Part shown: one piece after another, positions 27,763 to 41,992 of the stretch | Numbering within the stretch: position 1 is the stretch's first letter | How the letters are laid out: every line of letters begins with the position of its first letter | Origin: an uncultured Syntrophobacteraceae bacterium | GTDB lineage: Bacteria; Desulfobacterota; Syntrophobacteria; Syntrophobacterales; Syntrophobacteraceae | Direction of reading: 5' to 3' | Length of the DNA: 41,992 nt | Assembly: GCA_937889795.1 (NCBI GenBank) | Contig: CALBZH010000729.1 | Location: forward strand, 1 to 41,992 | The notes under the pieces: model-generated | The model's database searches: none | What the model was told of the DNA's origin: nothing | What the model saw: only the letters and a program-made list of their open reading frames with translations | Translations under genes and position numbers: made by a program

Positions 27763-28549
27763 GTACAAGCGCACTGTCTTCGCCAACTTCGTCACTCATA
27801 TGGGTGACATGGACATTCGAGAAGTCACGCCGGCCATCCTCCACTCCTACCTCGCCACCAGGCCAACCAATCACAATTACAATGTGCATCGAAAAGAGCT
27901 CTGCGCGCTCATGTCCTTCGCGATCAAGCAACTCCGGCTGCTGGAGCATTCCCCCTGCTGGACGCTGGAGAAGATGCCAGAGGAAACGAAGCGCAAGCAG
28001 ATACCGACTCAACAGGAATTCCTTAAGATCCTCGCTGCGGCCAATCCCGACGAAAAGCCCCTCCTCCTGATTCTGACCCACACCCTCGCCAGGATCGACG
28101 AAATCCTGCGCCTCACATGGCAGGACGTCAATTTTGAGAGACGGACGGTGACCCTGTGGACCCGCAAGCGCAAGGGAGGGAATCTTGAGCCGCGCACCAT
28201 CCCAATGAACAACGACCTCTATGGCGTGCTCTGGTCGCTGTGGGGAAGACGCGAGCAACAATCGTGGGTGTTCTTCAACGCCAAAGAGGGAACACGATAC
28301 AACCGCAGGCCGAAGATGATGCGATCCGTCTGCAAGCGTGCCGGAGTCGATAACTATGGATTTCATGCGATTCGTCATTTCGTTGCAACGTACCTGCACG
28401 ACGCGCTCAAGATCCCAACTGGGACAATCGGAAATATCCTTGGTCATCAGTCCAAACGAACCACGGAGATTTATCTTCATTCCGTCGACGAATCCGCACG
28501 GTTGGCAATGGATCGCCTGGAGGGGGCCTTCGATGCTTTCGGGAACTGA
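27524..28549 (+). CDS. int: Tyrosine integrase
   Basis: GTG 27524, with GAGGAGA six bases upstream, gives 341 residues. An N-terminal arm-binding domain (WRYSFQHQGKTFAGGGFKTK) and a core-binding SAM-like domain (LDWSMKRHAKKTFEYKRTVF) precede the catalytic domain. The catalytic residues are Arg in HTLARIDEILRLTWQDV, His-x-x-Arg in FHAIRHFVATYL, His in NILGHQSKRTTEIYLHSVD and the nucleophile Tyr in the same segment. It integrates the phage at the tRNA-Pro attachment site 130 bp downstream, the usual int-attP arrangement. A longer start at 27467 would lie fully inside the excisionase frame. Confidence 0.95.
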   Translation: MGLWQDKHRKDWRYSFQHQGKTFAGGGFKTKAAARAGREERRKAISNPQQTPIRTDTDFLTISNVYLDWSMKRHAKKTFEYKRTVFANFVTHMGDMDIREVTPAILHSYLATRPTNHNYNVHRKELCALMSFAIKQLRLLEHSPCWTLEKMPEETKRKQIPTQQEFLKILAAANPDEKPLLLILTHTLARIDEILRLTWQDVNFERRTVTLWTRKRKGGNLEPRTIPMNNDLYGVLWSLWGRREQQSWVFFNAKEGTRYNRRPKMMRSVCKRAGVDNYGFHAIRHFVATYLHDALKIPTGTIGNILGHQSKRTTEIYLHSVDESARLAMDRLEGAFDAFGN

Positions 28550-28554
28550 GGGAG

Positions 28555-28577
28555 CCGCAAGCAATGCTTGCGGTTTT
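28555..28577 (+). terminator. Terminator hairpin after int
   Basis: CCGCAAGC and GCTTGCGG form an eight-base stem with loop AAT, followed by TTTT. It lies five bases after the int stop. One arm belongs to the ATGCTTGCGGTT repeat that also occurs twice on the other side of attP, so it may double as an integrase arm site. Confidence 0.6.
28564..28575 (+). repeat. Integrase arm-type repeat, copy 1
   Basis: ATGCTTGCGGTT, identical to copies at 28749-28760 and 28762-28773. The three sites flank the attachment core on both sides, as arm-type sites do in lambda attP. Confidence 0.7.
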
Positions 28578-28680
28578 CCGGGAAACAGAGGCTTTTCGAG
28601 GTCAATTCCGGGGAAGCCAGACACGAAAAGGCTTGCAGAACAAGCCACTGTAAGGATTCGCGGATACTGGCGACGTTGCC

Positions 28681-28724
<44 letters not shown>

Positions 28725-28748
28725 GATATAAAACCGACCCACCTGCTC

Positions 28749-28773
28749 ATGCTTGCGGTTCATGCTTGCGGTT
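28749..28773 (+). repeat. Integrase arm-type repeats, copies 2 and 3
   Basis: Two tandem copies of ATGCTTGCGGTT (28749-28760 and 28762-28773) spaced 13 bases apart lie 25 bases beyond the attP core. With copy 1 at 28564 they bracket the core. Confidence 0.7.
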
Positions 28774-28870
28774 TTCTAAAAATCCTCGCTTGTCGATTTC
28801 CTCCTTAAGCTCATCTCCTCAAGTGTCCGAATATTATTGGGCGTATGCAATGACACCAAAAGGAGAAATC

Positions 28871-29737
28871 ATGGAAGCAGTCATTATTTTGGTTGTGGTT
28901 GGAACGAGCGTTTGGGTTCTCATGGATGCAAAGGCGCTCGGTATTGCGCCAGGTCAGAGGTCCGGTTTCTTGGACATGGGACCTATTTCCTGGTTTCTCT
29001 GTTGCCTGCTACTCTGGATTATCGCTTTCCCCGCATATCTCGTCATCAGATCACAGCAGAAGACAGCAGGATCAAACCCTGCAACTGAATCCCTGATGGA
29101 GGCTACACAGATCGGAAGATCTCAAGAGCAACATCGTGTCCCAATGGAGGAGAGGATCCCAATCAGTTGCCCAGGGTGTGGAAAGGTAAGTGGGGTACCG
29201 AGATCTAGGATCCCGGCAAGCGGAGTGAAAGCCACATGCAAACAGTGTGGGCATTCTTTCCATGTCGTTGTCCCAGCAGAGCACATTCCATCCGTGATGA
29301 AACCTCCCGTGATCGCACCCCAAACAATTCAGAGCCATGGACCATCAAAGAGTGGAATTTCTCTATTGAGGATAGGGATGGGTCTGGTTGCCGCAGTGGC
29401 TTTGATCGCGATTTATGCTCAGTTTTTGGTTTCTGGTGGAAATGCCCCTTTGAATTTTATTGGATCGAAGAACTTCACGGTGAATGTGAGAGGAGCAGAC
29501 TTGCTGCCTTACACAGGGCACATACTCATCATCAATGCGGATGGAACCAATAGATCACAGAGCGTCGACGGGAACGTTCCGAAGACGTACACGTTTTCGG
29601 ACGCGCTAAGCGTCTCATGCAGCTTCCAGAAGCATTCAGATGACAGCGCACCGCTCGCTCTTGAAATCTCAAATGGCGTGAAGCAAGAGACGGCGCGGAC
29701 CACCTCACCATTTGGCGTTGTATCCGCAGCTCTTTGA
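28871..29737 (+). CDS. Zinc-finger membrane protein, probable lysogenic conversion gene
   Basis: ATG 28871 behind AAAGGAG encodes 288 residues. Two membrane helices open the protein (AVIILVVVGTSVWVLMD and ISWFLCCLLLWIIAFPAYLV). Next is an MJ0042-type zinc ribbon (CPGC, then CKQCGHSFHVV). A third membrane helix (GMGLVAAVALIAIYAQFLV) leads to a beta-rich C-terminal domain of about 95 residues, probably outside the cytoplasmic membrane. The gene is AT-richer than the phage average, has its own orientation and lies beside attP, the classic place for genes expressed from the prophage. A role in surface change or superinfection exclusion is inference. Confidence 0.7.
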   Translation: MEAVIILVVVGTSVWVLMDAKALGIAPGQRSGFLDMGPISWFLCCLLLWIIAFPAYLVIRSQQKTAGSNPATESLMEATQIGRSQEQHRVPMEERIPISCPGCGKVSGVPRSRIPASGVKATCKQCGHSFHVVVPAEHIPSVMKPPVIAPQTIQSHGPSKSGISLLRIGMGLVAAVALIAIYAQFLVSGGNAPLNFIGSKNFTVNVRGADLLPYTGHILIINADGTNRSQSVDGNVPKTYTFSDALSVSCSFQKHSDDSAPLALEISNGVKQETARTTSPFGVVSAAL

Positions 29738-29748
29738 GTGGGTGAGCC

Positions 29749-29820
29749 CTAGACCTCCTGCAGCGTGATCTCCGACGGTAGCGAGCACGTTCCTGTTGAC
29801 GTTTCCACTGCCAAGACATA
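29749..29820 (-). pseudogene. Remnant of the 3' end of the tail gene at 30428-30688
   Basis: Read on the minus strand this stretch encodes LPSEITLQEV followed by a stop, exactly the C-terminus of the complete gene at 30428-30688, preceded by a weakly similar VLAVETSTGTCS. The DNA match is 28 of 31 bases (29753-29783 against 30432-30462). The region has no start and no ribosome site. It is the far copy of a duplication that brackets hicBA. The rest of the gap at 29738-29877 shows nothing else. Confidence 0.7.
29753..29783. repeat. Direct repeat flanking hicBA, left copy
   Basis: ACCTCCTGCAGCGTGATCTC begins this 31-base stretch, which matches 30432-30462 at 28 positions. The copies are in the same orientation, 679 bp apart, with hicB and hicA between them. 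Confidence 0.75.
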
Positions 29821-29877
29821 CAGAGAAGCTGAGTGAGTCATGGTCGTGATTCTTGCCGGTGGCTGTGGGGGTGCCAA

Positions 29878-30201
29878 ATGGATCAATATGTCGGAATTGA
29901 GATCAAAATGAGGGTGCCCATTGTCATTTCCAGGAAGGACAAGTGGGTTGTCGCGGCATGTCCGGCTATCGATGTGGTGAGTCAGGGCTCCGATGAGCAG
30001 CAGGCTCGAGCCAATCTCCTGGAAGCCATGACGCTGTTTTTTGAGTCCTGCCTGGAGAGGGGAACCCTGGACCAGGTTCTCAAGAGCTGCGGATTCTCTC
30101 TTTCTCAGTTTCCTCCGATCGATGACCAGGCCGAGTGTCTGGAAGTGCCTCTTTACATGCTCGCCAATTCCAAGGAATCCAATCAGTGTCTCCACGCATA
30201 G
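29878..30201 (+). CDS. hicB: HicB-like antitoxin
   Basis: This 107-residue protein has the HicB partial RNase-H-like fold: a beta hairpin MRVPIVISRKDKWVVAACPA, the conserved ID-V-SQG-S-EEA-NL pattern here read as IDVVSQGSDEQQARANLLEA, and a helix (MTLFFESCLERGTLDQVL). The C-terminal part would be the DNA-binding tail. HicB binds and neutralises HicA and represses the operon. The antitoxin comes first here, the less common order, and hicA follows within a few bases. ATG 29878 has GGGG upstream. Confidence 0.85.
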   Translation: MDQYVGIEIKMRVPIVISRKDKWVVAACPAIDVVSQGSDEQQARANLLEAMTLFFESCLERGTLDQVLKSCGFSLSQFPPIDDQAECLEVPLYMLANSKESNQCLHA

Positions 30202-30206
30202 GGCCA

Positions 30207-30419
30207 GTGCATTGGAAGGTCCTGGAGTGCGTGTTTCTAAGGGTTGGGTTCCAATTCGAGAGACAACGAGGCGATCACCGCGTCTATACGCGGCCAGACT
30301 GTCTCCGTCCCATCGTTATCCCCACCTACAATGAAATCGATCCTGACATCATTCTCTCAAACATGAGGACCGCCGGGATGGGGCGGGATGAATATTTCCG
30401 CCTGCTAAGGGACTGCTGA
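30207..30419 (+). CDS. hicA: HicA-like toxin
   Basis: HicA toxins are small double-stranded-RNA-binding-fold mRNA interferases. The 70-residue product from GTG 30207 shows the fold in order: VLECVFLRVGFQFERQRGDH with the catalytic histidine in G-D-H, RVYTRPDCLRPIVIPTYNEI with the conserved Pro, and the final helix (MRTAGMGRDEYFRLLRDC). It begins five bases after hicB ends. The ribosome site is weak, which would keep toxin below antitoxin. In a prophage it would favour retention of the lysogen or act against other phages. Confidence 0.8.
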   Translation: MHWKVLECVFLRVGFQFERQRGDHRVYTRPDCLRPIVIPTYNEIDPDIILSNMRTAGMGRDEYFRLLRDC

Positions 30420-30427
30420 GCGACCCC

Positions 30428-30688
30428 TCACACCTCCTGCAGCGTAATCTCCGATGGGAGCGCCGATGGAACCGCACTGATGAGGAAGGCTTGTCCTGAC
30501 GTGGTGCCGACGGCTACGGTCTGTCCTTCTGCCAGGCCTGGGAAGTCCGACGGGACGTAGTCGGCAAAGGTTTCTATTCCGGTGAGCCAGCGGATTTTCA
30601 CGCGGCGATTGCCGGGATCCGCGAGGAGGACGGTGGCGTAGCTGATTTCTTTGGGGCGCTCTCGGTTGATGAGGCGCTCAAGTCCCAT
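30428..30688 (-). CDS. Late tail-region protein, beta-rich
   Basis: ATG 30688 (GGGAG upstream) encodes 86 residues, mostly strands: ISYATVLLADPGNRRVKIRW, TFADYVPSDFPGLAEGQTVA and GQAFLISAVPSALPSEITLQ. The pattern suggests a small OB-like or SH3-like barrel, as found in tail-tip proteins. It is the last gene of the tail operon and overlaps the zinc-ribbon gene before it by 11 bases. Its 3' end is duplicated at 29749. Family not recognised. Confidence 0.65.
   Translation of the reverse strand: MGLERLINRERPKEISYATVLLADPGNRRVKIRWLTGIETFADYVPSDFPGLAEGQTVAVGTTSGQAFLISAVPSALPSEITLQEV
30432..30462. repeat. Direct repeat flanking hicBA, right copy
   Basis: This 31-base stretch matches 29753-29783 at 28 positions and encodes the C-terminal LPSEITLQEV of the tail gene on the minus strand. 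Confidence 0.75.
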
Positions 30689-30914
30689 GGCTGTCTTCTC
30701 CCGGGAGGGTGATGTGGCCGAAGTCGCGCGGCTCGGTCACCGGGCATGTTTTGCCGCAAATATCACATTTGCCCTCATGCCAAGTGGATAATTGGCCGTC
30801 TCCATACTGACGTGTCCCGCAGCGCATGCCGCAATCGTAGCAGATCCATGAGAGCGATCCTCGAGGGACGTGCTTTCCCTTTTTGGTCCCCGCAACAATC
30901 CTTGTGCTCTCCAT
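30678..30914 (-). CDS. Zinc-ribbon protein in the late operon
   Basis: In 78 residues there are two cysteine pairs, CYDCGMRCG and CDICGKTC, separated by about 20 residues with His and Trp between them, a typical Cys4 ribbon. The N-terminus is basic (VAGTKKGKHVPRG). No strong ribosome site precedes ATG 30914. It follows the 197-residue tail protein by 31 bases. Function unknown. Confidence 0.65.
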   Translation of the reverse strand: MESTRIVAGTKKGKHVPRGSLSWICYDCGMRCGTRQYGDGQLSTWHEGKCDICGKTCPVTEPRDFGHITLPGEDSHGT

Positions 30915-30945
30915 AAGATTTCTTATGCTCCAGCGTCCGACGATA

Positions 30946-31539
30946 TCACCGCTTGAGTGCCAAATACGTCGCGGCCGTGACGGACGAGGTGAGCCGCATC
31001 TCTCCCCCCTCGGAGATCTCGGCGGAGAGGCGGTGATCGACCACCTGCAGCAGCTCGTTCTTGCCGCGGCGCGTGCTGTTGAGGCGGATCACGTCTCCGG
31101 GCTCGAGCGTCGGGAGATGGCTGCCCAGGGCGATGTCCTTCGAGAGCACGGCGTGGGTGTGGGCGTCGATCTCGGCCTTTGCCCGGGTCGTGATGATGTC
31201 CGCGTTCCGATAGATGGGATGGCTGATCTCGTCCAGCTCGACGAATTCGGCCACTCGGACGATGGCGTCGGGATCCCCGGAGGCTCCGGTCACCAGGAAA
31301 TGAAAATCCTGCGTGCCTTGGAAGAAGGATATCTGGACGGTGGCGCCCGGGTCGGCCGTCAGCACGATCTCCATCGACGATCCATAGGCGCAGGATCCAG
31401 CGGCCTGGGGCGACGTATCGGCCTCCGCATCAGCCTCGGTCAGGTAGAGCGCGCATTGGATGTCGGATCCGGAATCGGACAGCTTCAGGAACCACAGCCG
31501 GTTGGGATCCACGTTCCAACTGTCTATCGAGAAAGGCAT
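30946..31539 (-). CDS. Putative tail or appendage protein
   Basis: At 197 residues this is a beta-rich protein (NRLWFLKLSDSGSDIQCALY, SMEIVLTADPGATVQISFFQ, then DFHFLVTGASGDPDAIVRVA). The central segment IYRNADIITTRAKAEIDAHT recalls structural proteins. ATG 31539 has GAGGGAG upstream. It is eight bases after the coiled-coil membrane gene and is likely a virion surface component. No firm family. Confidence 0.6.
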   Translation of the reverse strand: MPFSIDSWNVDPNRLWFLKLSDSGSDIQCALYLTEADAEADTSPQAAGSCAYGSSMEIVLTADPGATVQISFFQGTQDFHFLVTGASGDPDAIVRVAEFVELDEISHPIYRNADIITTRAKAEIDAHTHAVLSKDIALGSHLPTLEPGDVIRLNSTRRGKNELLQVVDHRLSAEISEGGEMRLTSSVTAATYLALKR

Positions 31540-31546
31540 GGCTCCC

Positions 31547-32095
31547 TCACTTTGCCACGGTGCCGTGATGATCGATGACCCATTTTAGGATCATCATTCC
31601 GATGGAGACGACGCCGGCGACGATCGCCCCGTATTTTCCCGCCAGGCTGGCGACCTTTTCCCTGACGGTGGTGAGGATCTCAACGGTTTCGTCGTGCTTC
31701 TCGTCGATCTTTTCGAGCAGATCCTTTTCCTGGTCGCGCAGACGAGCGGTCAGGTCGTTCCGCAGCGTCAAGACCTGGTTGGCCAGCGCCTGCTCGAGAG
31801 CCACCGTGCGGTCCTTGTTCTGCTCCCGCTTGACCTCGCTTTCTCGAAACTGATCGGTCACCTGCTGAATGCAGTCGGCCCTGCGCCTGTCATAATCGGA
31901 GACGACCTTTTCCAGGGTGTCGAGCTTGTTGGAGACGATCGCGAGTCGCTCTGAATGCTCGCGGAATTTGCCGACGTCGGAAACCATGGATTCAACTAGC
32001 TTGCTTGTGTTCTCGGAGAGCCGTTGCTGTTTGACCAACAGGCTCAGGATCATGGGCAAGACATCTTTATCAGGCAGAACGGCTCTCTCAGCCAC
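31547..32095 (-). CDS. Coiled-coil protein with C-terminal membrane anchor
   Basis: GTG 32095 (GGAGGGAGG upstream) overlaps the receiver gene by eight bases and gives 182 residues. Residues 15-145 form a long coiled coil (for example MVSDVGKFREHSERLAIVSN, KLDTLEKVVSDYDRRRADCI, TARLRDQEKDLLEKIDEKHD). One membrane helix ends it (GAIVAGVVSIGMMILKWVI) with DHHGTVAK outside. XhlA-like holin partners have a coiled coil plus end-anchored helix, and so do some signalling adaptors. Direct coupling to a receiver domain is the striking point. Either a lysis accessory or a membrane partner of the receiver. Confidence 0.7.
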   Translation of the reverse strand: MAERAVLPDKDVLPMILSLLVKQQRLSENTSKLVESMVSDVGKFREHSERLAIVSNKLDTLEKVVSDYDRRRADCIQQVTDQFRESEVKREQNKDRTVALEQALANQVLTLRNDLTARLRDQEKDLLEKIDEKHDETVEILTTVREKVASLAGKYGAIVAGVVSIGMMILKWVIDHHGTVAK

Positions 32096-32681
32096 TGTCG
32101 GCACCTCCCTCCACCTCGGGACCACTGTAGCCAGCGCGCCGGATCAGGTCCGACAACAATTCCTTGAGGAGTTCCTCCTCCTCACGGATCTCGGATAGAC
32201 ATTTCTTGTAGCTCACAACCCGCTCTTCCACGTACTGCTTGAGCGCCATCCGGCGAGAGTGCTTGATCTGCCATACCAGGAGCTTGGAGATTAGAAAGTC
32301 ATAATCGATGGGTTTTTTGAGAAAATCGTCCACACATTGGAGTAGCCGCTCATCGAAGAGCGGGTAGTAGCCGCTCACGGCCGCAATGAAGACGTTGTCA
32401 TCCTCGTGCCGAAATTTCACGGCCAGGTTGATTCCCTCATCGGTCGATGAGCCCAGGTGCAAGTCCACGAGGACGGCGAAATACTTGCCCGGATTAAATA
32501 GGGAGAGGGCCTCCGGCACATTTCTGGCCGACACCACCCGATACAATCCCGTGCGCATGATGTGGGTCTTGAGGATTCGAGAGACCTCCGGATCATCCTC
32601 GACAATCATAATGGCCTGCTGCTGAGTCTGCAGGGGCAGGCAATCGCAGTGTTCCATCGAGGTGGTTTCGTCGGCAATCAT
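32088..32681 (-). CDS. Stand-alone response-regulator receiver domain
   Basis: The 197-residue protein is a CheY-like receiver followed by a helical tail and has no DNA-binding or enzyme output domain. All key residues are present: acidic pair D29-D30 in IMIVEDDPEVSRILKTHI, phosphoacceptor D73 in FAVLVDLHLGSSTDEG, S103 in AAVSGYYPLF and K123 in FLKKPIDYDF. The tail (about 132-190) is a coiled coil (VSYKKCLSEIREEEELLKEL). AGGAGG lies seven bases before ATG 32681, and the gene overlaps the repeat-protein stop region and the coiled-coil gene. No histidine kinase is encoded here, so a host kinase or acetyl phosphate would have to phosphorylate it. Confidence 0.9.
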   Translation of the reverse strand: MIADETTSMEHCDCLPLQTQQQAIMIVEDDPEVSRILKTHIMRTGLYRVVSARNVPEALSLFNPGKYFAVLVDLHLGSSTDEGINLAVKFRHEDDNVFIAAVSGYYPLFDERLLQCVDDFLKKPIDYDFLISKLLVWQIKHSRRMALKQYVEERVVSYKKCLSEIREEEELLKELLSDLIRRAGYSGPEVEGGADSG

Positions 32682-32683
32682 TG

Positions 32684-33304
32684 TCATACCTCCTGGACCA
32701 CGGACGACACACGCTGTGCCATGACCGACCGAAAGGAGGGCGCTCGCTTGACGGCGGCCAGATAGGTTCCAATGGAGCTGAAGGCCAAGCCATCCGTGAC
32801 CTCGAAAGAGACTCCGAGATCCGAGAGCACCAGAGGGATCTCAGCCGCAAGATAGGTGCTCACATCATGCAGCGCGTATCCGGCTGCAACGAAATAGGAG
32901 AGAAGGTCCTCACGCGCATCGGCCAGGGCAGTGAGATCGGCTTTGAGATTCTCGAGCACCAGGGCGGCGGCATGCAGGAGGGTCGGAAAATCCTCCAGCG
33001 AATAGGTGCACGTTTGAAGGGAGGCCACCGCGTCCTCCAGCGACTGGTAGTATGCCGAGAAATCCGATCCGACGTCCTCGAGGCATTGATAGTAGGCGGA
33101 GAGGAATGACAGCAGGTCCTCGAGCTCCAGTCCGTCATGGGCGCGCAGATACGTGGCCACGTCCTCGAGGGACTGGGCGTAAACGGCCAGGTCGAGCGAG
33201 ACGTCCTCGAGCGCGGTTTGCTCCCCTTCGGGCTCGATTTGGACGTCGGTCCACAGATCGAGAGAGGAGGTCGTCCACAATCCGAGCGGATCGCTTATCC
33301 ACAT
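32684..33304 (-). CDS. Protein of tandem 14-residue repeats
   Basis: Residues about 31-165 of 206 consist of nine or ten units of 14 residues with consensus x-Leu-Glu-Asp-Val-x-x-Tyr-Leu-x-Ala-x-x-x. Examples are SLEDVATYLRAHDG, ELEDLLSFLSAYYQ, CLEDVGSDFSAYYQ, SLEDFPTLLHAAAL and ALHDVSTYLAAEIP. One unit has a one-residue insertion. The period of 14 fits two heptads or a short helix-turn unit. The N-terminus is Trp-rich (MWISDPLGLWTTSSLDLWTD). The protein is very acidic. It is followed directly by the receiver gene. I know no phage family with this repeat. Confidence 0.75.
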   Translation of the reverse strand: MWISDPLGLWTTSSLDLWTDVQIEPEGEQTALEDVSLDLAVYAQSLEDVATYLRAHDGLELEDLLSFLSAYYQCLEDVGSDFSAYYQSLEDAVASLQTCTYSLEDFPTLLHAAALVLENLKADLTALADAREDLLSYFVAAGYALHDVSTYLAAEIPLVLSDLGVSFEVTDGLAFSSIGTYLAAVKRAPSFRSVMAQRVSSVVQEV

Positions 33305-33313
33305 GCTGGCCCC

Positions 33314-34282
33314 CTACATACCGTCAGGAATGACGAAGCCAACGACATCGATTCCGATTCCATAGCGTGCCGACCCGCTGGCAGTGATTTTCTTGGCCGA
33401 GTCGCAATTGATCAGCATGTACGAGTAGATCTTGACACATGAGCCGTCGATATATCCGATTCCGGTTGAAGTGCCCCCTTTCACGTTGAGATAAGCGCTG
33501 GCAGAAGTACTGCCGTACCTGGCACCCTGATAGAAGACATAGGCTATCATGCTCGCAAGAGGCACGGTCAACGTGATATCGAGTGACGTGTTGACGTTTC
33601 CGTCTGCCCACGTCTGCGCGGTGATCAGGGCGCTCAACCTATAGATCTGGCGCGAGATCGTGAAGGCCGTGACCTGGCTCGAAGCATTGGAATAGATGAA
33701 TCCGATGCATCTCAGGTCAGTGGTCGTCGGGTGATACCACCCGCGCTTCGCCTGGTCATAGGTCGGCATGGTGCTCGAATACTCGATATCGTCCGCAACC
33801 AGTGACAAGCCATTGTCCGGTGGATCGACATAAATGGCATACCAAGTGGATGCGCTCAAGGATGTGAGCTGCTTTGTGAGCTGGCTTTGGGCACAGTAGA
33901 CGTTTTCGGCCGATCCGTTGTCGATATGCAGTGCCCCGGAATCGATATAGACCTCATCCGCGTCCTTGTAGGACAGGGTAAGCCCGCTCTTGAAACCTCG
34001 ATTCATCCAGATCAGCTGGAGAGGGACATTGCCGCCCGTCTCCTTGCTAAGAACTCTGGAGAAATCCACGGACGCCAGGTTGGCCGTGATCGCCTGGGAT
34101 TCGGTCGAGTCGAGGTACACCGTGGTATTGGGAGCCGAATAGGAGGAATAACTGACATAGCCATACTTGATGCCGTCCGCGCCGCAATCCATCCGCAGGG
34201 CCACGCCAGGATTGAAATCTGTCGTTCTATCTGTCGCTACCGTAAATTGGGTGCCGCTGACATAGGTTGCCGTGATTGACAT
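33314..34282 (-). CDS. Putative tail fibre / host-contact protein
   Basis: This 322-residue beta-rich protein begins MSITATYVSGTQFTVATDRT, the kind of hairpin start common in fibre proteins. It continues with repeated strand pairs (TTVYLDSTESQAITANLASV, EVYIDSGALHIDNGSAENVY) and ends in a Gly/Ser-rich domain (RYGSTSASAYLNVKGG, then GSARYGIGIDVVGFVIPDG), like many receptor-binding or fibre tip domains. Its place in the distal part of the tail operon supports this. No enzymatic motif is seen. Confidence 0.6.
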   Translation of the reverse strand: MSITATYVSGTQFTVATDRTTDFNPGVALRMDCGADGIKYGYVSYSSYSAPNTTVYLDSTESQAITANLASVDFSRVLSKETGGNVPLQLIWMNRGFKSGLTLSYKDADEVYIDSGALHIDNGSAENVYCAQSQLTKQLTSLSASTWYAIYVDPPDNGLSLVADDIEYSSTMPTYDQAKRGWYHPTTTDLRCIGFIYSNASSQVTAFTISRQIYRLSALITAQTWADGNVNTSLDITLTVPLASMIAYVFYQGARYGSTSASAYLNVKGGTSTGIGYIDGSCVKIYSYMLINCDSAKKITASGSARYGIGIDVVGFVIPDGM

Positions 34283-34291
34283 GAGATCCCC

Positions 34292-34771
34292 TCAGCTTTC
34301 CAGGATTGTCGAAACCGGTGCGGATCCGACCGACCCAAGCTTCCAGCCGCGCGTTGCCGACCCTCCCCACTCCTTGCCCCAGGAGCGCCGCATCCGGACC
34401 ACTTTCCCGTGCCCAACTCGCCACATTTCGACGATGTCCTGTTGAGGCAGCTTCCCGCAAAGCCAGAAGGCTTCTATGCGCGCTCCATGTTTGGCGGACA
34501 TGGAGTCCGAGGCCTCCACGAAAAAGTTGTAAGCCTCCATCCCTGAAAGCACGATGCGGTGCCCGGTTGGAAGGAAGAATTCGAGGCACTCGATCTGCCG
34601 GTTGAAGATCTCGTCGCCCCATCCGGGATTGCTGTGGCGAATGTCCGGCGTCAGGTATTGCTTCGGAGGAAGCTTGCCGGCGAAGGTGGCCCGGATGCGC
34701 CAGGCGAGGGACGGCCGGTGAGACGGCGAATGGGTGAATCGGTGAGTCGGAGAAAGCTGGACCTCGGACAT
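34292..34771 (-). CDS. Putative tail accessory protein
   Basis: At 159 residues, the N-terminus is low complexity with repeated Ser/Thr-His-Arg (SPTHRFTHSPSHRPS). A mixed domain follows (FNRQIECLEFFLPTGHRIVL, SGMEAYNFFVEASDSMSAKH) with a Gly/Trp end (RRSWGKEWGGSATRGWKLGS). It is ten bases from the fibre gene and probably a virion protein. Family unknown. Confidence 0.55.
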   Translation of the reverse strand: MSEVQLSPTHRFTHSPSHRPSLAWRIRATFAGKLPPKQYLTPDIRHSNPGWGDEIFNRQIECLEFFLPTGHRIVLSGMEAYNFFVEASDSMSAKHGARIEAFWLCGKLPQQDIVEMWRVGHGKVVRMRRSWGKEWGGSATRGWKLGSVGSAPVSTILES

Positions 34772-34789
34772 TTTGTGTCCTACCTCCTG

Positions 34790-35446
34790 TCAGGAGTAGA
34801 GATACCGGCACGTCAGCACGATCGATGTGTTGCTCTGGGGCGTGAACGTGCTGGCAATATTTTGCTTCATGTTCCAGTAGAGATTTTTCGCGCCGGCAAG
34901 GGCTCCCGTATCCAGCGCGATCCGGCTGTCAGTCCCGGAGAGGGCAGTCCCTGACCACGTCGCGGATCCAGGAGCCGCATTGGTCGTGGCGATCGCCTTG
35001 AGCGTGCTGTTGGCCGGTGTTCCGTCTCCCAGGAAGTCGTTGTCCGCGGCTGCGTGCGTGCTGTCGTTCCATGCCTCTAAATAGGGGATTCCGGCGGTGA
35101 CTCCGTCGAAATAGACGGCGAAGACATACCTATTATCGCCTCCTGATTGCCCCCCGGCCGTGGTTCCTGCGAGGGGCACCTGGTCGAAGACGCCGGCCGA
35201 GTTGTCATCGATGAATGTTTTCGGGACCTCGATCGAGCCCGAAGACGGGATGATTGCCGGGAATTTTGCACCCGTGCGCGCGTCGCCATCGAGCTGCTGA
35301 GAGTCGAGGAACATGATTTTGTCGTTCACGGTGTCCATGACGACCCAGTTTGAGCTTGAACCTCCTGCTCCACCTGAAGCATTTCCAGAATTCGCACCGT
35401 CGTTACTGGTATTGTTAAAAAGCCAAGTGAGGTTGGGGCGGGACAT
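34790..35446 (-). CDS. Virion surface protein, beta-sandwich type
   Basis: ATG 35446 with GGAG nine bases upstream gives 218 residues. After LTWLFNNTSNDG and a Gly/Ser/Asn-rich linker, the rest is strand-rich (NWVVMDTVNDKIMFLDSQQL, DNRYVFAVYFDGVTAGIPYL, TSIVLTCRYLYS). A tail or fibre accessory protein is likely from position. The flanking HNH-type gene begins just upstream. Confidence 0.55.
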   Translation of the reverse strand: MSRPNLTWLFNNTSNDGANSGNASGGAGGSSSNWVVMDTVNDKIMFLDSQQLDGDARTGAKFPAIIPSSGSIEVPKTFIDDNSAGVFDQVPLAGTTAGGQSGGDNRYVFAVYFDGVTAGIPYLEAWNDSTHAAADNDFLGDGTPANSTLKAIATTNAAPGSATWSGTALSGTDSRIALDTGALAGAKNLYWNMKQNIASTFTPQSNTSIVLTCRYLYS

Positions 35447-35450
35447 GGCA

Positions 35451-36089
35451 TCATCTCCTTCCACTTATTGATAAAGCTTCATCAAATGGCCATCCGTGCG
35501 CAAGTCGCATCTGGATAACATTCACTTTCATGCCTAGTTCTTCTGCCCATGCCGAAAGGCATTGTGACTTTCCGTTGAGACAAAGGAGGTGGTTGTTCCT
35601 CCGGTTCCTTTGCTGTTCTTTCATGCTAGCCCACCGGCAGTTTTCTGGAGAATATGGACCATTGGAATCGATACGCTCCAATGACAATCCTCCTGGAGGT
35701 TCGCCCATGTCATCAAGGAAATTTTCAAAGACTTTCCAGCGCTCACAGACTGTAATTCCCCTGCCTCCATAGCAATGCCAGAATTCATCTTTCTCCCTGC
35801 GGCATCGATTCAGCATGTTTTGCCAAATCCGGTAGACTCTGCTCCCTGTCTTTCCATGGCGCCGGTTGATCCTTCCTGTAACCTCATTGTGGAAGCATCC
35901 ACAGGAAGTTGAATCTCCGTTTTTCAGGGTGTTGCCGCAGACTTCTCGGATGACACCGCAATCGCATCGGCACGTCCAATAGATGATTCGAGATTTCCCA
36001 TGGTATCGAGGCTGTCCTTCTGAGATGACAGTCCATCTGCCATAGCGACGTCCTGAGAGATCTTCTCTTGGCTTGCCTCTTCGAGCCAT
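35451..36089 (-). CDS. Free-standing homing endonuclease-like protein (HNH/AP2 type)
   Basis: In 212 residues the order is characteristic. A DNA-binding start reads RRYGRWTVISEGQPRYHGKS, with CRCDCGVIREVCGNTLKNGD and STSCGC. The catalytic-type segment LSLERIDSNGPYSPENCRWA is followed by QRNRRNN. A C-terminal helix-turn-helix reads CLSAWAEELGMKVNVIQMRL then GWPFDEAL. Such genes spread by cutting and copying themselves into phage genomes. It is AT-richer than its neighbours and sits between two tail genes with four-base and ten-base gaps. Start ATG 36089 has GGAAGGG upstream. Confidence 0.85.
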   Translation of the reverse strand: MARRGKPREDLSGRRYGRWTVISEGQPRYHGKSRIIYWTCRCDCGVIREVCGNTLKNGDSTSCGCFHNEVTGRINRRHGKTGSRVYRIWQNMLNRCRREKDEFWHCYGGRGITVCERWKVFENFLDDMGEPPGGLSLERIDSNGPYSPENCRWASMKEQQRNRRNNHLLCLNGKSQCLSAWAEELGMKVNVIQMRLAHGWPFDEALSISGRR

Positions 36090-36099
36090 TTCCCTTCCT

Positions 36100-36564
36100 C
36101 TAAAGCGCCACCGTGTAATCGCATTCCCCGCAGAGGAGCCGCACTTTTAGCCCGCGCCGCCCTTCATCGCACCCTGGGCAGATGCCTTCCTTGAACATTT
36201 CGCCTCCGCAGGACGGACACTTCAGCTCCTGCACCCGCTTGACGGATGTGTCGGCCCTTTTCCGAGCGGGACGCTTCCGTGCCTCTGTGTTCTGCTGGAC
36301 GGTGACGCGCGTGGGATCGTTGACGGCCGCCGCGCGATCACGAATGAAGATCTTGCTTCCGATCTGTTGCCACTCATATCCCTTGGGAATGGCGCCGACA
36401 TGTTCCGACCATCCGGATTCCTTCATTCTGGCGATCGCATTATTCCTGTGCTCAGTGACCTGTCTGACGTGGTCCTGGTTGAGGCGCTTGAAGGCTTCCT
36501 TGACGTCATCCCAGTCATAGGCTGACAGGTGATTGAAAATCAGGCTGATTCGGTCTTCCGACAT
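36100..36564 (-). CDS. Zinc-ribbon protein after the tail tip gene
   Basis: ATG 36564 lies two bases after the tail tip stop with GGAG nine bases upstream. The 154-residue product has a helical N-terminus (ISLIFNHLSAYDWDDVKEAF), a basic middle (EARKRPARKRADTSVKRV) and a C-terminal zinc region with CPSC, CPGC and CGEC. It may bind DNA or the cysteine-rich tail tip during assembly. Family unknown. Confidence 0.6.
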   Translation of the reverse strand: MSEDRISLIFNHLSAYDWDDVKEAFKRLNQDHVRQVTEHRNNAIARMKESGWSEHVGAIPKGYEWQQIGSKIFIRDRAAAVNDPTRVTVQQNTEARKRPARKRADTSVKRVQELKCPSCGGEMFKEGICPGCDEGRRGLKVRLLCGECDYTVAL

Positions 36565-36566
36565 GG

Positions 36567-39500
36567 TCAGCAACTCCATTCATAGATATCGACGCATTGC
36601 AGGAAGCAATACGTCGTCTTCTGGCATCCTGCGCAGATGTAGCAATCGTAGTACTCACTGATGACCTCGGGGCCCTTCGGAGGAGACGCACAGTCAGGCA
36701 GTACGGATTCGAACGTCTGCCCCGCGCTCGAGCACACCGTGATAGCTGTGGCACCATAACAGTCCACATACTTCTTGACGCCCTCTATCCAGTTGGATCC
36801 CCATGGATTCGGGCTCGGGCAAGCGAAGGCATGATATTTACAGGTTCCCGTGATGTCCTGTCGCTCGAGAAGGACCCAGCTCCCGGCATTGGTGACCCGC
36901 GCCTGCATGGTGGCACTCGACCCGCATCCATCCGTGACTGTGACCGTGAAGGTTCCGCAGGCGGAAGCATCAAGAGTCACGAGGCCATCCTCGGAGATCG
37001 TCGCCCCCGTCCCAGCCACCTCCCACGTGTAAGGCTGGAACCCGCCGGCCGCCGTGAATTGGTAGCCTCCTGGCTTTGTAACGGCATCGGATCCCGTGAG
37101 AGTCAGCTCGGGAGCTTGAGCGCAGGCGCCGCAGGCGGTGCGGCATTCATCGAAGGCCTCCTGGCGGATCTCGCCGTACTTTTCCCAGTACTCCTGAGTG
37201 TCGGCGGTCAGGCCGTAGTCTTCCTCGACGATCTGCTCGAAGGTGCGGTAGCTGCCGCCGTCGTAGCTCTGGATGGTGCCGTACTTGGAGAACTCCTCCT
37301 CACAAAGCTCGTCACACGTGCATCCGTGGGCGGTGGCTCCGAAACGGCCGGCGAGGCAGTTTTGATCGGCTGAATCCTGGCAAGGCGTGGTGACGCATCC
37401 AGCGCCGCCCCCGTCGCACTCATTGGAGGCGTAGCAGTCGCGCTTTCCGCCTTTTTCGCAGCAGGTCTTCCCTTCACCGCAGGTGACCACGGAGCCATCG
37501 GGCTTCTTGCACTTGGTTCCCTTGGAGCTGTCGTGCTCCTTTTTGCCTCCGGAGCCGCCCTTGCTGCCGGATCCGGCTTTGCACTCCACGGAATAGTAGC
37601 AGCCCTTCTTGAGCGTGGTTCTGTGCTCGCAGCACTGTTTCCCAGGGGCGCACTCCTCGGTGCTGCCGCCGTAGGCCGAATCGCAGTCCTCGACGGGCCA
37701 GCATCCAAGCTCGCCGTCCTTGTAGCACCTGACGCTTTCATTGGCGCATTGCTCGAGCTCGTCAGAAGCATAACAGCCGTCGGTGCCGTCTTTTTTTCCA
37801 TAGACTTTCCCGACGCCCCCGTCGACGTGGTCGGTGTCGCACTCGTTGGAGGGATAACAGCCGGGCTCTCGCGCCTTGGTGCAGGTGATCTTCCCGGAGT
37901 CGCAGACATCGCATTCCGAGGCCGCATAGCATCCGTAGACGCCTGATCGAGCGCACCAGACTTTTCCGGAGTCGCACGCGACGGGCTCGGAGTCGCATGG
38001 GGTCGCTTCGGTCTCGCACAGGCCGTCATTGCAGCATCCATCGGGGTCGTCCCCGCTGCCGTCTTCTTTCGAGACCGATATGGACACGCGCGCCTCGGTG
38101 GGCTCCTCCCGGGTCGTCATGATCATGGCCCGCACGACGTCCGTGCCGGCGGTGATGCCATCGTAGATATTCGATGCCGCGCCAACGGCCACGTAATCGA
38201 CGATGAGTCGGTCTCCAGTCGTGACCTCGGCCGTGAGGTTGATCACCTTCTGGACATGGGAACCGTAGATCGATCCACCCGATTTGACGAGGTTCCCGTC
38301 ATCGTCCTCGGTCGTGCGCCAGACGCCCGTCACGGAATCCGGGAACATGGAGATCTCGCATTGGGTGACGCCCGAGATGACGTTCTGTGCCTGGGTCTCC
38401 TCGTTGGTGATCGTGACCCGTCCGAGATAGGCCTCGGTCCAGTCGATGTGTCCGTGAACGGGAGAGGAGTCGAGCGTCATCCAGATGGACCGGCCGTCCC
38501 GGACAGGGGCCCCGCCGATCTCGACGTAAGCGATGAGCCCGGAGGATTCACCGATCTTGATCGAGGACGGGTCGGCGCGCAGCGTAAGACTCGCCGGGCA
38601 GTTGCACGGATTGTCGAGGTAGACGTCCTGCGTGGCAACGTTTCCGGCGACTTCTGCCGAGACCTTGTCGGTCCCCGGGGTATCGCCGGCCGACATCCAG
38701 TTTACCGCGATCCCGGCGGACATATAACTCACCACCAACGCCTGGTCGCAGTACGAGAGCTTGCGGGTCAGGCGGATCGTGCTTCCGTCCACCGTGTAGC
38801 CATCGAGGGCGATGTCATCGGCCTTAGCAAAATCGCGGTAGGCGAAGACGCTGATGACCAGGTTCGGTGGGAACTGGACCTCAACCTCGTAGAAATTCTT
38901 GGCGCGGACCTGCTCGTCGGTGAAAACGACCGTCTGCGTGTTGGTCGTGGGCTCGTCGAAGACCACCAGATCCTGAGAAGAGGACCAATTGACCGGGACG
39001 TCGTTGACGGCGATCCCGTCCGAGTCCGTCACCCTCGCAAGGAGCTTCCCGCGCGTTTCGGTGTCGGCCGAAAGACAGGAGGAAGGAGCCACCAGGCGCA
39101 CGGAATATCCCGAGAGAGAACCAGCTGATGAGATCCGGATCCGGTTTCCGAAATCGGGCCACTCGGGATCCTCGGAGATGCTGACGGCGATGGGATCGGT
39201 GATGGTGTGATCGGCAAGGGCCGGAGCGCGATCGGTCTTCTTGATGCACACATGCCCGGCGGCATCCGTTGTGAGGAAGGCATCGTCACCATAGGCGAGC
39301 TGCAGCAGTTCCTTGATGATCTCGACCGGGTGTTTCAGCTCAGCCTGATAGGTGCGGCCGTGGACCAGGAAGTCATTCACGTCGGAGTAGGATGGATCCC
39401 AGGTCAGGCCCGAGGCCTCGAGGAGCTCCGCCGCGATCGCGAAGAAGGTCGTGTCGGTTTCCCAGGTCTGTGTGAGCTTGACGGCGAAGGGAGGCCCGAG

Positions 39501-39800
39501 GAGCGCCGTCTTCGAGCGCCCCCAGAGCCCCGTCTGAGTGGCATGAATCCCAACCTGGTACGTCGGTTTTTCGATGAAGAACAGGCCCTGACTCACCCAG
39601 TTGGTGTCGATACGGGTTTGCACCTCGAGGACGGGCTCGGTCGGCAGGATTGAAAAATCGATGGTGTCATAAAGATCCGGGTCGGCGATGTCGAGGGACA
39701 GCTCACGGCAGTAGGTGTCGAGCCTGGAGGAGATTTCCAGCTTTGAAACCTGGTCGGTGATGTCCGTGCCATCGAGGAGGATCTTTATGCCGTAGGCCAT
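36567..39800 (-). CDS. Tail tip / central hub protein with Ig-like domains and knottin-like cysteine repeats
   Basis: This 1077-residue protein is probably the tail hub and host-contact protein. Residues 1-200 resemble hub/late-control proteins (MAYGIKILLDGTDITDQVSK, then ELLEASGLTWDPSYSDVNDF). Residues about 240-560 hold Ig-like beta domains (LLARVTDSDGIAVNDVPVNW; SLTLRADPSSIKIGESSGLI). Residues about 588-840 contain 34 cysteines, mostly in six copies of Cys-x-x-Gly-Lys-x-x-Cys ... Gly-Cys-Tyr-x-x-x-Glu-Cys (about 608-796). A further Ig-like domain (GYQFTAAGGFQPYTWEVAGT) and a Cys-rich end close it. The third cysteine unit has lost three of its four cysteines. Confidence 0.8.
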   Translation of the reverse strand: MAYGIKILLDGTDITDQVSKLEISSRLDTYCRELSLDIADPDLYDTIDFSILPTEPVLEVQTRIDTNWVSQGLFFIEKPTYQVGIHATQTGLWGRSKTALLGPPFAVKLTQTWETDTTFFAIAAELLEASGLTWDPSYSDVNDFLVHGRTYQAELKHPVEIIKELLQLAYGDDAFLTTDAAGHVCIKKTDRAPALADHTITDPIAVSISEDPEWPDFGNRIRISSAGSLSGYSVRLVAPSSCLSADTETRGKLLARVTDSDGIAVNDVPVNWSSSQDLVVFDEPTTNTQTVVFTDEQVRAKNFYEVEVQFPPNLVISVFAYRDFAKADDIALDGYTVDGSTIRLTRKLSYCDQALVVSYMSAGIAVNWMSAGDTPGTDKVSAEVAGNVATQDVYLDNPCNCPASLTLRADPSSIKIGESSGLIAYVEIGGAPVRDGRSIWMTLDSSPVHGHIDWTEAYLGRVTITNEETQAQNVISGVTQCEISMFPDSVTGVWRTTEDDDGNLVKSGGSIYGSHVQKVINLTAEVTTGDRLIVDYVAVGAASNIYDGITAGTDVVRAMIMTTREEPTEARVSISVSKEDGSGDDPDGCCNDGLCETEATPCDSEPVACDSGKVWCARSGVYGCYAASECDVCDSGKITCTKAREPGCYPSNECDTDHVDGGVGKVYGKKDGTDGCYASDELEQCANESVRCYKDGELGCWPVEDCDSAYGGSTEECAPGKQCCEHRTTLKKGCYYSVECKAGSGSKGGSGGKKEHDSSKGTKCKKPDGSVVTCGEGKTCCEKGGKRDCYASNECDGGGAGCVTTPCQDSADQNCLAGRFGATAHGCTCDELCEEEFSKYGTIQSYDGGSYRTFEQIVEEDYGLTADTQEYWEKYGEIRQEAFDECRTACGACAQAPELTLTGSDAVTKPGGYQFTAAGGFQPYTWEVAGTGATISEDGLVTLDASACGTFTVTVTDGCGSSATMQARVTNAGSWVLLERQDITGTCKYHAFACPSPNPWGSNWIEGVKKYVDCYGATAITVCSSAGQTFESVLPDCASPPKGPEVISEYYDCYICAGCQKTTYCFLQCVDIYEWSC

Positions 39801-39812
39801 GCATGAAGCCTT

Positions 39813-40403
39813 TTATTTCAAGTCGATCAGGGTGGCCAGCTTCTCGTCTATCCGATCGAGGGTGGCCGAGATTTGTTGCACCAGATCGAGCATGGACGGT
39901 GCTCCGGGCGGAAGCAGATCAAACTGCACGTCAACCGTTGTGCGCTTGCTAACGTTGGTGATCGTGTAGGGTGCCTCGATGGGGTTACCATCCACCTTGA
40001 CGGTCAAGATCCGATTCCCTGTCGACGGAGTCACCATCAAAGTCACGCTTCTCCCCTGCTGCACGAAGAAGCTTCCGTTTGGAGAGACAAGCCCTCCCGT
40101 ATTGCTGGTGACGACCACCGGGTGGCAGAGGATCTCATTCGAGAAGGCGCTTTCCCTCTTCGCGGCATCGTAAGCGGTTGCGGCCACATACCGGGAGGCA
40201 ACAGGGTCCATCTCCATGGTTCCAGTCGTCCCGGTCCCAGGAACATCCTGCGAGCTGGTATATGTGCCGCTGACGGTCCCCTGGTGGAGCTTATATCCTG
40301 CGACAGCCCCGGTGCTCGCGTTCCACTGGAACTTGACCGGGATGGCCCAGGCGGACGTCGCCAGGAAGACCGAGCAGACAACGAGCAATATGAAACGTTT
40401 CAT
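39813..40403 (-). CDS. Secreted-type fibronectin III protein in the tail operon
   Basis: ATG 40403 follows GAGGTGAAG. The first 20 residues (MKRFILLVVCSVFLATSAWA) are a clear signal peptide with an Ala-x-Ala cleavage site. Then come a fibronectin III-like domain (IPVKFQWNASTGAVAGYKLH to YVAATAYDAAKRESAFSNEI) and a bacterial-repeat-like beta domain (GGLVSPNGSFFVQQGRSVTL). The end is a short coiled coil (LVQQISATLDRIDEKLATLI). A signal peptide is odd for a virion part. It may be placed in the host envelope or be processed after recruitment from a host gene. Confidence 0.7.
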   Translation of the reverse strand: MKRFILLVVCSVFLATSAWAIPVKFQWNASTGAVAGYKLHQGTVSGTYTSSQDVPGTGTTGTMEMDPVASRYVAATAYDAAKRESAFSNEILCHPVVVTSNTGGLVSPNGSFFVQQGRSVTLMVTPSTGNRILTVKVDGNPIEAPYTITNVSKRTTVDVQFDLLPPGAPSMLDLVQQISATLDRIDEKLATLIDLK

Positions 40404-40412
40404 GGCTTCACC

Positions 40413-41231
40413 TCAGATATCTTTGGAGTCGATGTTGAGCAGCATCTCGATGCTGTACACATTCTCGTTGGCCGCAGCCTTGTACCAGAGGTTTTGATAG
40501 ACCTTGAGCCCGTCCGGCTTGGCGAATTTGACCTTCCAGCAGTTGATGGAGTCCGTGAAGTAGTACTGGGTTGCGATCGCCTCATAGAGTGCCTTGAGGC
40601 TGGCAATGAGCGTGCTCGATAGCGCGACGTCGGTTAGAGAGAGGGCAATCCTGCCATCTTGCGCGAATTGGCCGAAGTCCTGATCAACGGCACCCCCGAG
40701 GGTCTGGATCCGAGTGCCTCGTCCGTAGCCGCCCGCGTTGGGATCATACTGGCCGGAGAGGGGCTCCTCGGCGAAATCGATGAAGCTCACGGGGATCTGC
40801 GCCAGGCTGAAGTTGTCGAAGGTTCCGGCGGAGTTGATCTCGTTTGCCGCCAGGCGGATGCCGCCCGAGGTGGTCGCTGTCCACTGGATCTCCTGCGCCC
40901 CGGTCGCGATCACCGTGCCGTAGGTCTTGGTCCCGTCGAAAGACTTGACCGTCCATGTGCCGGTGAGGCCGGATACGTCGAAGGTCAGGCGGTATTTCTT
41001 GGTGGCCGTGGTGGGAGCGCTTGCGACCGGGCAGGTGCAGTATTGACCGATGGCCGATGCGACAAGGGATAGGTCGCCGGTCTCGTCATAGGCATTCAGG
41101 TCCACGTTCTCCCAGGCCGACGCTCCGGAGAAGCTGCGGTCCACGGCGTTGGGCATCAGCTCGGTTTCGGCCCACGGGTTGATCGAGGCTCCGAAGTCGG
41201 TCGTGAAGATCGCGAATTGGATGGTCATCAT
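40413..41231 (-). CDS. Distal tail-type protein with inserted carbohydrate-binding-like domain
   Basis: This 272-residue protein starts ATG 41231 overlapping the tape measure stop, where the distal tail protein is normally encoded. The outer parts (FAIFTTDFGASINPWAETEL and the end from AVDQDFGQFAQDGRIALSLT to YSIEMLLNIDSKDI) fit a tail-ring protein. Between about residues 35 and 155 lies a beta-sandwich of carbohydrate-binding type (TKKYRLTFDVSGLTGTWTVK, IQWTATTSGGIRLAANEINS, then GTFDNFSLAQI), probably for host surface contact. Confidence 0.6.
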   Translation of the reverse strand: MMTIQFAIFTTDFGASINPWAETELMPNAVDRSFSGASAWENVDLNAYDETGDLSLVASAIGQYCTCPVASAPTTATKKYRLTFDVSGLTGTWTVKSFDGTKTYGTVIATGAQEIQWTATTSGGIRLAANEINSAGTFDNFSLAQIPVSFIDFAEEPLSGQYDPNAGGYGRGTRIQTLGGAVDQDFGQFAQDGRIALSLTDVALSSTLIASLKALYEAIATQYYFTDSINCWKVKFAKPDGLKVYQNLWYKAAANENVYSIEMLLNIDSKDI

Positions 41232-41992
41232 CGCCCCCCGGTCAGCCGCATCTTTTCCAGCTCACGCTTGAACTGCTTCACCATGGCAGCCCCGTTGGGG
41301 CCTTTGACCTGCACCGGCAGCTCTACCTCACCGGCGCGCAGGCGGAGAGTGCCGAAGTCGGAGGCGGAGCCGACCGGGCCGCCGGTGGCATATCCAATTC
41401 TAGGCAACGCCGGCATGGCGTCACCGAAGATCCGTGGAAGATCGAACCTCATGGAGTTCAGCATCTGGAAGAATCCAGCGCCATATTTGGAAACGGCTTC
41501 CTTTCGGACGACGAACTCTCCAGCCTCGAGAAGTGCCTTGATTTGATCGCCGCCACCCCAGCCGGGGAGCTTTCCGCCCTCGGACATAAGCCCCCCCCAG
41601 CGACTTTCCTGAACAGACTGAACGTGAATCACATGAGTGGAATGGGTGACCGTGTTGTTGAGCTCCTGAAGCTTTGCGTCGATGGCTCCGGAATCAACCT
41701 TGATTTCAGCCGTTGGAGCGATCACCGTCCGGTTCAGCTCCTCAATCTTGGTCGAGACCTTCTCCAGCTCCGCCTGGTAGGACTGCGCAGCGGTCTTGCT
41801 CGCCTCCTCATTCTTCTTGGCCTGTTCTTCTTGTCTTTTGAGGGCCTCCTCGAGGACTGCCTGACTCTTGGTCATTCCCTCCGTGGCGGCCTTGACCGTT
41901 TGGTCGAGAGTCTTGAAGGTGGTGTCGCCGACCTTCACTTCACCGATCAGGCTTTCGAATTTCTGACCGGCTTTCTCGGCGAGCTGCTCGGC
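41228..41992 (-). CDS. Tail tape measure protein, C-terminal part (continues from base 1)
   Basis: This is the last 236 or so codons of the tape measure gene that begins at 2047 and crosses the join. The segment has coiled-coil sequence (AVLEEALKRQEEQAKKNEEA, YQAELEKVSTKIEELNRTVI). A Gly-rich region follows (RWGGLMSEGGKLPGWGGGDQ), then the FVVRKEAVSKYGAGFFQMLN motif seen at the end of many tape measure proteins. It ends at 41228, overlapping the next gene. A GTG at 41938 is internal and not a separate start. Confidence 0.92.
   Translation of the reverse strand, partial: AEQLAEKAGQKFESLIGEVKVGDTTFKTLDQTVKAATEGMTKSQAVLEEALKRQEEQAKKNEEASKTAAQSYQAELEKVSTKIEELNRTVIAPTAEIKVDSGAIDAKLQELNNTVTHSTHVIHVQSVQESRWGGLMSEGGKLPGWGGGDQIKALLEAGEFVVRKEAVSKYGAGFFQMLNSMRFDLPRIFGDAMPALPRIGYATGGPVGSASDFGTLRLRAGEVELPVQVKGPNGAAMVKQFKRELEKMRLTGGR
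41938..41992. repeat. Terminal direct repeat, copy 2 (circular join)
   Basis: Exact copy of bases 1-55. See the first copy for interpretation. Confidence 0.95.

Follow-up and report, generated by a model that had tools for sequence, protein, structure and literature searches.

Why would a phage carry a stand-alone receiver gene between two genes of its tail module, and on what could such a receiver act? The question is raised by a stretch of DNA of 41,992 nucleotides (the window, by which we mean the whole stretch analyzed), in which the receiver gene follows the gene of a protein with 14-residue repeats and overlaps the gene of a membrane-anchored coiled-coil protein, hereafter called the coil (Table 1). 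Because the ends of the window are an exact 55-bp repeat and a 932-residue tape-measure frame runs across the junction once this overlap is removed, we regard the window as a circular phage contig of approximately 41.9 kb. Pfam searches with ten window ORFs identified an integrase, a GpA-type terminase, a lambda-type portal, an S49 protease and Rha, and PHROGs added a tape measure, which agrees with the original prediction of a phage late operon. The tailed phage is probably temperate. An endolysin was not recognized in the window, where it could have been missed by inspection of the ORF lists by eye and by comparison of selected ORFs with Pfam and PHROGs.

Table 1. Positions of the discussed features in the window
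Feature	Coordinates	Strand	Remarks
Small late protein, two genes past the insert	30428..30688	-	phmmer matches in L007, L024 and L015
'SWN' protein, 197 aa, conserved tail-module protein downstream of the insert	30946..31539	-	alignment A3; in 24/28 related records
Membrane-anchored coiled-coil protein (coil)	31547..32095	-	182 aa with GTG 32095 as start; single hydrophobic segment, C-terminal
Stand-alone receiver	32088..32681	-	197 aa from second ATG (199 aa from first ATG, 32687); REC, long α-5 and extra C-terminal helix
Protein of 14-residue repeats (core tail gene), upstream of the insert	32684..33304	-	homologues P0008–P0012; profile matches in 24/28 related records
Most conserved tail-module protein (A4), used to find relatives	34790..35464	-	69–78% identity to L001–L003; alignment A4

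Relatives of the A4 protein were found at 28 loci, on 22 virus contigs and on 6 genome contigs assigned to Desulfobacterales, Desulfobacteraceae, Desulfonema, Desulfobacterium or Desulfobacter. Since tail-module relatives thus occur in Desulfobacterota genomes, the host is probably a sulfate-reducing bacterium. None of 50,697 annotated phage records matched the A4 protein. The tail module common to Desulfobacterota phages comprises window positions 30946-31539, 34292-34771, 34790-35464 and 36567-39800; the products of the first three had no significant match to a named family in Pfam, PHROGs or NCBIfam, and the fourth (1077 aa) has a weak PHROG tail-protein match (E = 0.0054) and Ig-like domains below the cut-off.

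The receiver ORF (32088-32687) matches the Pfam family Response_reg (PF00072) with E = 3.4e-11 and 43.7 bits against a cut-off of 30.2. Translation likely starts at the second ATG, which has AGGAGGT six bases upstream, and the first ATG overlaps the stop codon of the repeat gene. Counted from the second ATG, the protein contains E28-D29-D30, D73, S103 and K123. With the (β-α)5 fold and the full set of switch residues, the description as a CheY-like receiver holds and, judged by its sequence, the protein should be phospho-competent. D73, S103 and K123 had been called correctly, but the acidic pair had been placed at D29/D30, whereas we take it to be E28/D29 from the alignment with CheY. In the structure model, a long α-5 (129–155) is followed by a further helix (160–184, both in first-ATG numbering), so that the predicted 'coiled-coil tail' was right in kind, at a pLDDT of only 56–73 from about residue 101 on, a region covering the output face and the extension. 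That an output domain is lacking proved accurate: neither Pfam (above cut-off) nor NCBIfam revealed an effector domain attached to REC, be it DNA-binding, enzymatic or of another kind, and the model contains only helices after REC. Residues 25–138 are additionally matched by PHROG 731, annotated as of unknown function (41.2 bits).

Relatives of the receiver were detected neither in viral_contigs and genome_contigs (both scanned with short exact patterns) or plasmids nor, at E ≤ 1e-3, among the 50,697 phage records, and none of the 22 related virus records, many of them fragments, contained PF00072. Some viral receivers exist in BFVD, a few of them from tailed phages, so the notion that stand-alone receivers are rare in phages is broadly right. 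When 389 class genomes were sampled, the profile of the receiver family matched six at E ≤ 1e-12 (ORFs of 129–158 aa; best E = 9.2e-15), and there is no close host source in this sample. The GC content of the receiver and coil stretch is similar to that of its surroundings.

The coil ORF as listed starts at 32125. Homologues and a Shine-Dalgarno site point to GTG 32095 as the most likely start, from which the gene overlaps the receiver gene by 8 nt, as claimed initially for a coiled-coil membrane protein. The only strongly hydrophobic stretch of the coil is C-terminal (Kyte-Doolittle peak of 2.06, at residue 166 when counted along the longest ORF). For the minus strand, positions 30428–41992, the threshold for hydrophobic segments (19-residue mean >1.8) was otherwise exceeded only by a signal-like N-terminus at 39813-40403. 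The coil presumably faces the cytosol. XhlA-type lysis proteins (PF10779) likewise consist of a coil followed by one C-terminal transmembrane segment. The window coil shares this build and its late gene position, whereas it is longer than XhlA, and PF10779 was not among its Pfam matches at E up to 0.1. Pfam and NCBIfam contained no lysis family for the coil; PHROG matches were weak, namely to PHROG 1103 (unknown function) for four of ten members and to an Rz-like spanin family (E = 0.0026) for one of ten. No endolysin gene adjoins the coil gene, whose neighbors in the window are the receiver and SWN genes. The protein search yielded ten coils including that of the window (alignment A6), one of which, P0016, ends in unrelated residues at its C-terminus and may be chimeric.

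Outside of this set, coil relatives were found neither in viral_contigs or phages nor as sequence relatives in the PDB; the search of 389 class genomes, run without a positive control, returned an empty result, and 395 phylum genomes contained a single match, L081. There the coil gene comes after phage-like sequence that encodes a portal (PHROG 1497) and an Ulx-like anti-restriction protein, and the 19.5 kb fetched around it contain neither a match to the receiver profile nor a repeat protein. Since the coil occurs without the receiver in L081, it should have a basic role of its own, which the receiver may modulate. The L081 homologue lies between the portal module and genes that by eye resemble BREX-type defense (L081:9203-16635).

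The original prediction combined receiver, coil and repeat protein into one unit. That the repeat protein has a 14-residue period was borne out: self-similarity of the window copy is highest at an offset of 14 residues (0.06 compared to −0.09 for the best of 200 shuffles), and in eight of nine repeat proteins, L002 being the exception, the best shift was 14, 28 or 42 and beat all 200 shuffles. Five repeat proteins were retrieved by the protein search; the repeat protein alone had no match in viral_contigs, and an alignment of repeat proteins matched three loci. Repeat ORFs in relatives range from 166 to 1757 aa (one, of 70 aa, is truncated by a contig end), with the repeat block as the matched part. 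Pfam analysis of the repeat proteins of five loci identified LamG in three, SPRY in one and an F5/8-type domain below cut-off in one; DUF2341 was present in two of the three LamG proteins, in one of them below cut-off. These domains, which lie ahead of the repeat block, suggest that the repeat protein could serve at the tail tip or in receptor binding. Among the relatives examined, this front part varies (LamG, SPRY, F5/8-like), a pattern that would fit a receptor-binding protein of modular build. PF22448 on P0012 remained below cut-off (22.7 against 26.1 bits), and an AF2 model of the repeat protein was too poor to be used (pLDDT 40).

The junction between the repeat gene and the SWN gene ('SWN' being a label coined in this analysis) was surveyed in the 28 related records, 22 viral and 6 genomic, by a profile search of the ORFs in the fetched stretches. 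In 15 records SWN directly follows the repeat gene, with gaps of −139 to +67 nt based on mechanical starts. The order repeat, A4 protein, p159, SWN is found in nine, where repeat and SWN genes are 1023–1424 nt apart, L018 having approximately 370 nt more than the other eight between A4 and p159, and four records stop too early to show the junction. L004 and L026 gave identical scores and may represent one phage. None of the 15 records contains an insert at the junction that is occupied by receiver and coil in the window, where the cassette is fitted in seamlessly: adjoining genes overlap at their ends or are separated by 2 to 7 nt, with the coil stop 7 nt ahead of the next tail-module gene.

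The trio as one unit is thus not supported: the repeat protein is a tail-module gene occurring without the receiver, and the search for the trio in related records found no receiver at that place beside any of the 24 repeat proteins. What stands of the predicted unit is the receiver and the coil, which overlap and seem to travel together. Three outside receivers share their longest-contig size with a coil (P0003/P0014, 1565; P0005/P0017, 4934; P0004/P0018, 27959, which is also the size for repeat protein P0012), and in these three pairs receiver and coil diverge in step from those of the window (0.78/0.77, 0.65/0.57 and 0.65/0.60). These equal contig sizes make it likely that the pair recurs in other environmental DNA for three of the six outside receivers; P0003 and P0014 would lie within a few hundred bases of each other if the 1565 bases are one contig. 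Equal-size partners are lacking for the other three receivers (P0002, P0006 and P0007) and for six of the nine outside coils (P0015, P0016 and P0019–P0022), most contigs being short. A receiver standing alone among unrelated neighbors, named in advance as evidence against a unit, was not seen, with the neighbors of most homologues out of view, and the reverse case of a coil without a receiver is that of L081. A two-gene accessory cassette in the late (tail-to-lysis) operon is the best explanation for receiver and coil.

The conservation pattern of the receiver is the most telling result. Seven receivers, including that of the window, were obtained by the protein search, and D73, on whose conservation the original prediction hinged, is invariant in all six outside homologues, as are D29, S103 and K123; position 28 is E or D (D/D in P0005). 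Mean pairwise identity among six full-length receivers is 0.30 in the N-tail and 0.37 in α-1, compared to 0.84 in β-4, 0.89 in α-4, 0.90 in β-5, 0.87 in α-5, 0.85 in the α-5 extension and 0.75 in α-6. P0007, which has an internal gap in the α-5 region, was left out of these figures; those for all seven rows are within 0.04. In known receiver complexes, α-1 is the side at which histidine kinases dock. A near-fixed output face combined with a variable α-1 therefore implies that the output partner should be constant and phage-encoded, and that the source of the phosphate may vary with the host. As the product of the neighboring gene, the coil is the obvious candidate for this partner. Alternatively, the extension might simply dimerise, and six homologues are few.

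We tentatively propose that the receiver is charged by host donors and then binds and gates the membrane coil of the phage. The receiver would be made late, along with the virion proteins, and D73 would be phosphorylated by whatever donor the host offers, be it several histidine kinases or acetyl phosphate; any host donor could serve because the kinase-docking side is free to vary. Phosphorylation would alter the near-invariant α-4/β-5/α-5 face and the helical extension, which would then bind the membrane-anchored coil encoded by the phage itself. Gated in this way at the inner membrane, the coil would most likely hold back or set off a late event at the membrane, for instance lysis.

A somewhat unlikely alternative is that the receiver, having no output of its own, acts as a decoy that drains phosphoryl groups from host histidine kinases and thereby silences stress signaling of the host late in infection, with the coil merely holding it at the membrane near the kinases or being unrelated. 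An intact phosphorylation site without a DNA-binding or enzymatic output domain would fit this function, and potential targets are numerous, given 45 to 112 PF00072 matches in each of the six searched genomes with related prophage genes. However, a pure sink should keep the kinase-docking α-1 and vary elsewhere, which is the opposite of the pattern found, and a long conserved helical extension would be superfluous. That phage proteins can act on two-component systems of the host is exemplified by PIT4 of Pseudomonas phage LSL4, which binds several host histidine kinases via their kinase domains; in contrast to the window receiver, PIT4 is an early gene product and, in the available text of that report, is characterized by kinase binding and not as a receiver (PMC10714779).

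For lysis as the step controlled by receiver and coil, the main contextual support comes from a second receiver, encoded in a lysis-like operon of L026, a Desulfobacterales genome contig (prophage locus) with the same tail module. Here the tail module is followed by a small late protein, an ORF that appears Fn3-like by eye, a 77-aa membrane protein and a 169-aa receiver (PF00072, E = 7.1e-19), and next by an M23-like peptidase below the Pfam cut-off (25.7 against 28.7 bits), an ORF that is lipoprotein-like by eye with no Pfam or PHROG match, and a C92-type peptidase just above cut-off. The receiver gene overlaps the gene of the membrane protein by 4 nt and that of the peptidase by 35 nt. A hybrid kinase is encoded beyond the operon on the other strand. 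At the same place, relatives encode an endolysin (L023; PHROG 90, E = 3.6e-40) and an Rz-like protein (L007; E = 1.2e-6), the gene of the latter (L007:13029-13454) being preceded by a weak relative of the small late protein of the window. Timing of lysis by the receiver-coil pair is thus possible, and control of lysogeny found no support in this analysis. In the 16 records showing 1 kb or more past SWN, the receiver profile detected a receiver in phage-like sequence only in L026; one in L027 lies approximately 6 kb downstream, beyond host-like genes. In L019, a late protein (L019:15060-15839) that looks PAS-like by eye lies next to a small membrane protein; as a second sensor in the equivalent place it was rejected, the PAS_4 match being below cut-off (E = 0.15).

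The L026 receiver seems to be an ordinary one that resembles receivers of many host genomes: matches at E up to 1e-14 occur in 192 of the 389 class genomes, among them its own, and it is 35–43% identical to its 15 best outside matches. It had no match in viral_contigs and matched 25 of the 50,697 phage records at <60% identity, many of them unannotated and some apparently host DNA by size or name. Because the L026 receiver resembles those of many host genomes and the window family is further off, the two were probably recruited separately. Common ancestry of the L026 membrane protein and the window coil was not supported, as the score of the best of ten rows was reached by 32 of 300 shuffles. 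In its most extended form, our proposal would describe a phage-made switch, in which a receiver charged by several host kinases makes the coil set or hold back lysis and which would have been invented at least twice, in the lineage of the window and in the L026 prophage; taken as a whole, we consider this unlikely.

Quite unlikely, too, is a role in late membrane protection, by which receiver and coil would mediate superinfection exclusion or maintain envelope integrity while virions are assembled; envelope stress would be sensed by the receiver. The late operon, the membrane anchor and the accessory distribution (the junction is empty in 15 of the 15 records that show it) are consistent with such a role, as is the coil of L081, which stands without a receiver behind a phage stretch with the Ulx-like gene. 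Superinfection genes are, however, usually expressed from the prophage, and the gene ends, overlapping or at most 7 nt apart, leave no intergenic room for a promoter. We regard it as very unlikely that receiver and coil are tail-associated virion components, either injected or structural: both genes lie without a gap between two conserved tail-module genes, but 15 related records have the module without them, and neither a C-terminal transmembrane segment nor an intact phosphorylation site is expected in a tail protein. An accidentally acquired, drifting host receiver gene would account for the accessory distribution but is highly improbable in view of six outside homologues with an invariant active site and a near-invariant output face and of the missing close host source in the sampled class genomes.

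In its fold and its full set of switch residues, the receiver resembles the stand-alone receivers CheY, Spo0F and DivK (PF00072), and as in these the output must be protein-protein contact. It differs from them in being a phage late gene product with extra helices past α-5, in the overlap of its gene with a membrane-coil gene and in that no kinase was recognized in the window phage, as judged with one kinase query. This hybrid kinase, used as sole phmmer query against the 344 window ORFs, matched only the receiver (E = 5.6e-5), and the same query did retrieve other signaling proteins in the fetched loci. Phage response regulators are already known from Alteromonas phage R8W, Helicobacter pylori prophages and the BFVD entries, and so is a phage protein that acts on host kinases. 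R8W g48, likewise from a tailed phage, is annotated as a PhoB-like DNA-binding response regulator (PMC8228385), whereas no DNA-binding domain was found in the window receiver, which has an adjacent gene for a putative membrane partner. In H. pylori prophages, control of late genes was proposed for an ArsR-like response regulator together with a histidine-kinase-like gene (PMC11321410), which places two-component-type proteins in the late program as we propose here; that regulator is transcriptional, in contrast to the window receiver, in which no DNA-binding domain was found and whose proposed target is a membrane protein. Among the titles and abstract openings searched, which mostly lay outside subscription journals, no phage that pairs a receiver with a membrane coil was described.

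Peptides, autoinducers and DNA damage are among the cues that phages read. If the receiver is coupled to the phage's own membrane protein, host two-component signaling would bypass transcription and bear directly on a late stage of infection. The phages concerned would be those of sulfate reducers, whose most conserved tail-module protein is without a match in the annotated phage collection, and with just two genes the pair is a small, testable system.

Two further regions of the window deserve mention. Beside the integrase, an ORF on the plus strand (28568-29737) encodes a zinc-ribbon (PF13717) and a hydrophobic segment, and by eye the start of its frame resembles a read-through of a tRNA 3' end, which may mark a possible att site; ARAGORN detected no tRNA in the window and Rfam no RNA family in 28300-30900. 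At 29833-30419, also on the plus strand and thus opposite to the late genes, a HicA toxin is encoded (PF07927, E = 1.1e-7), and the ORF ahead of it, which had no Pfam match at E ≤ 0.001, resembles a HicB antitoxin by eye.
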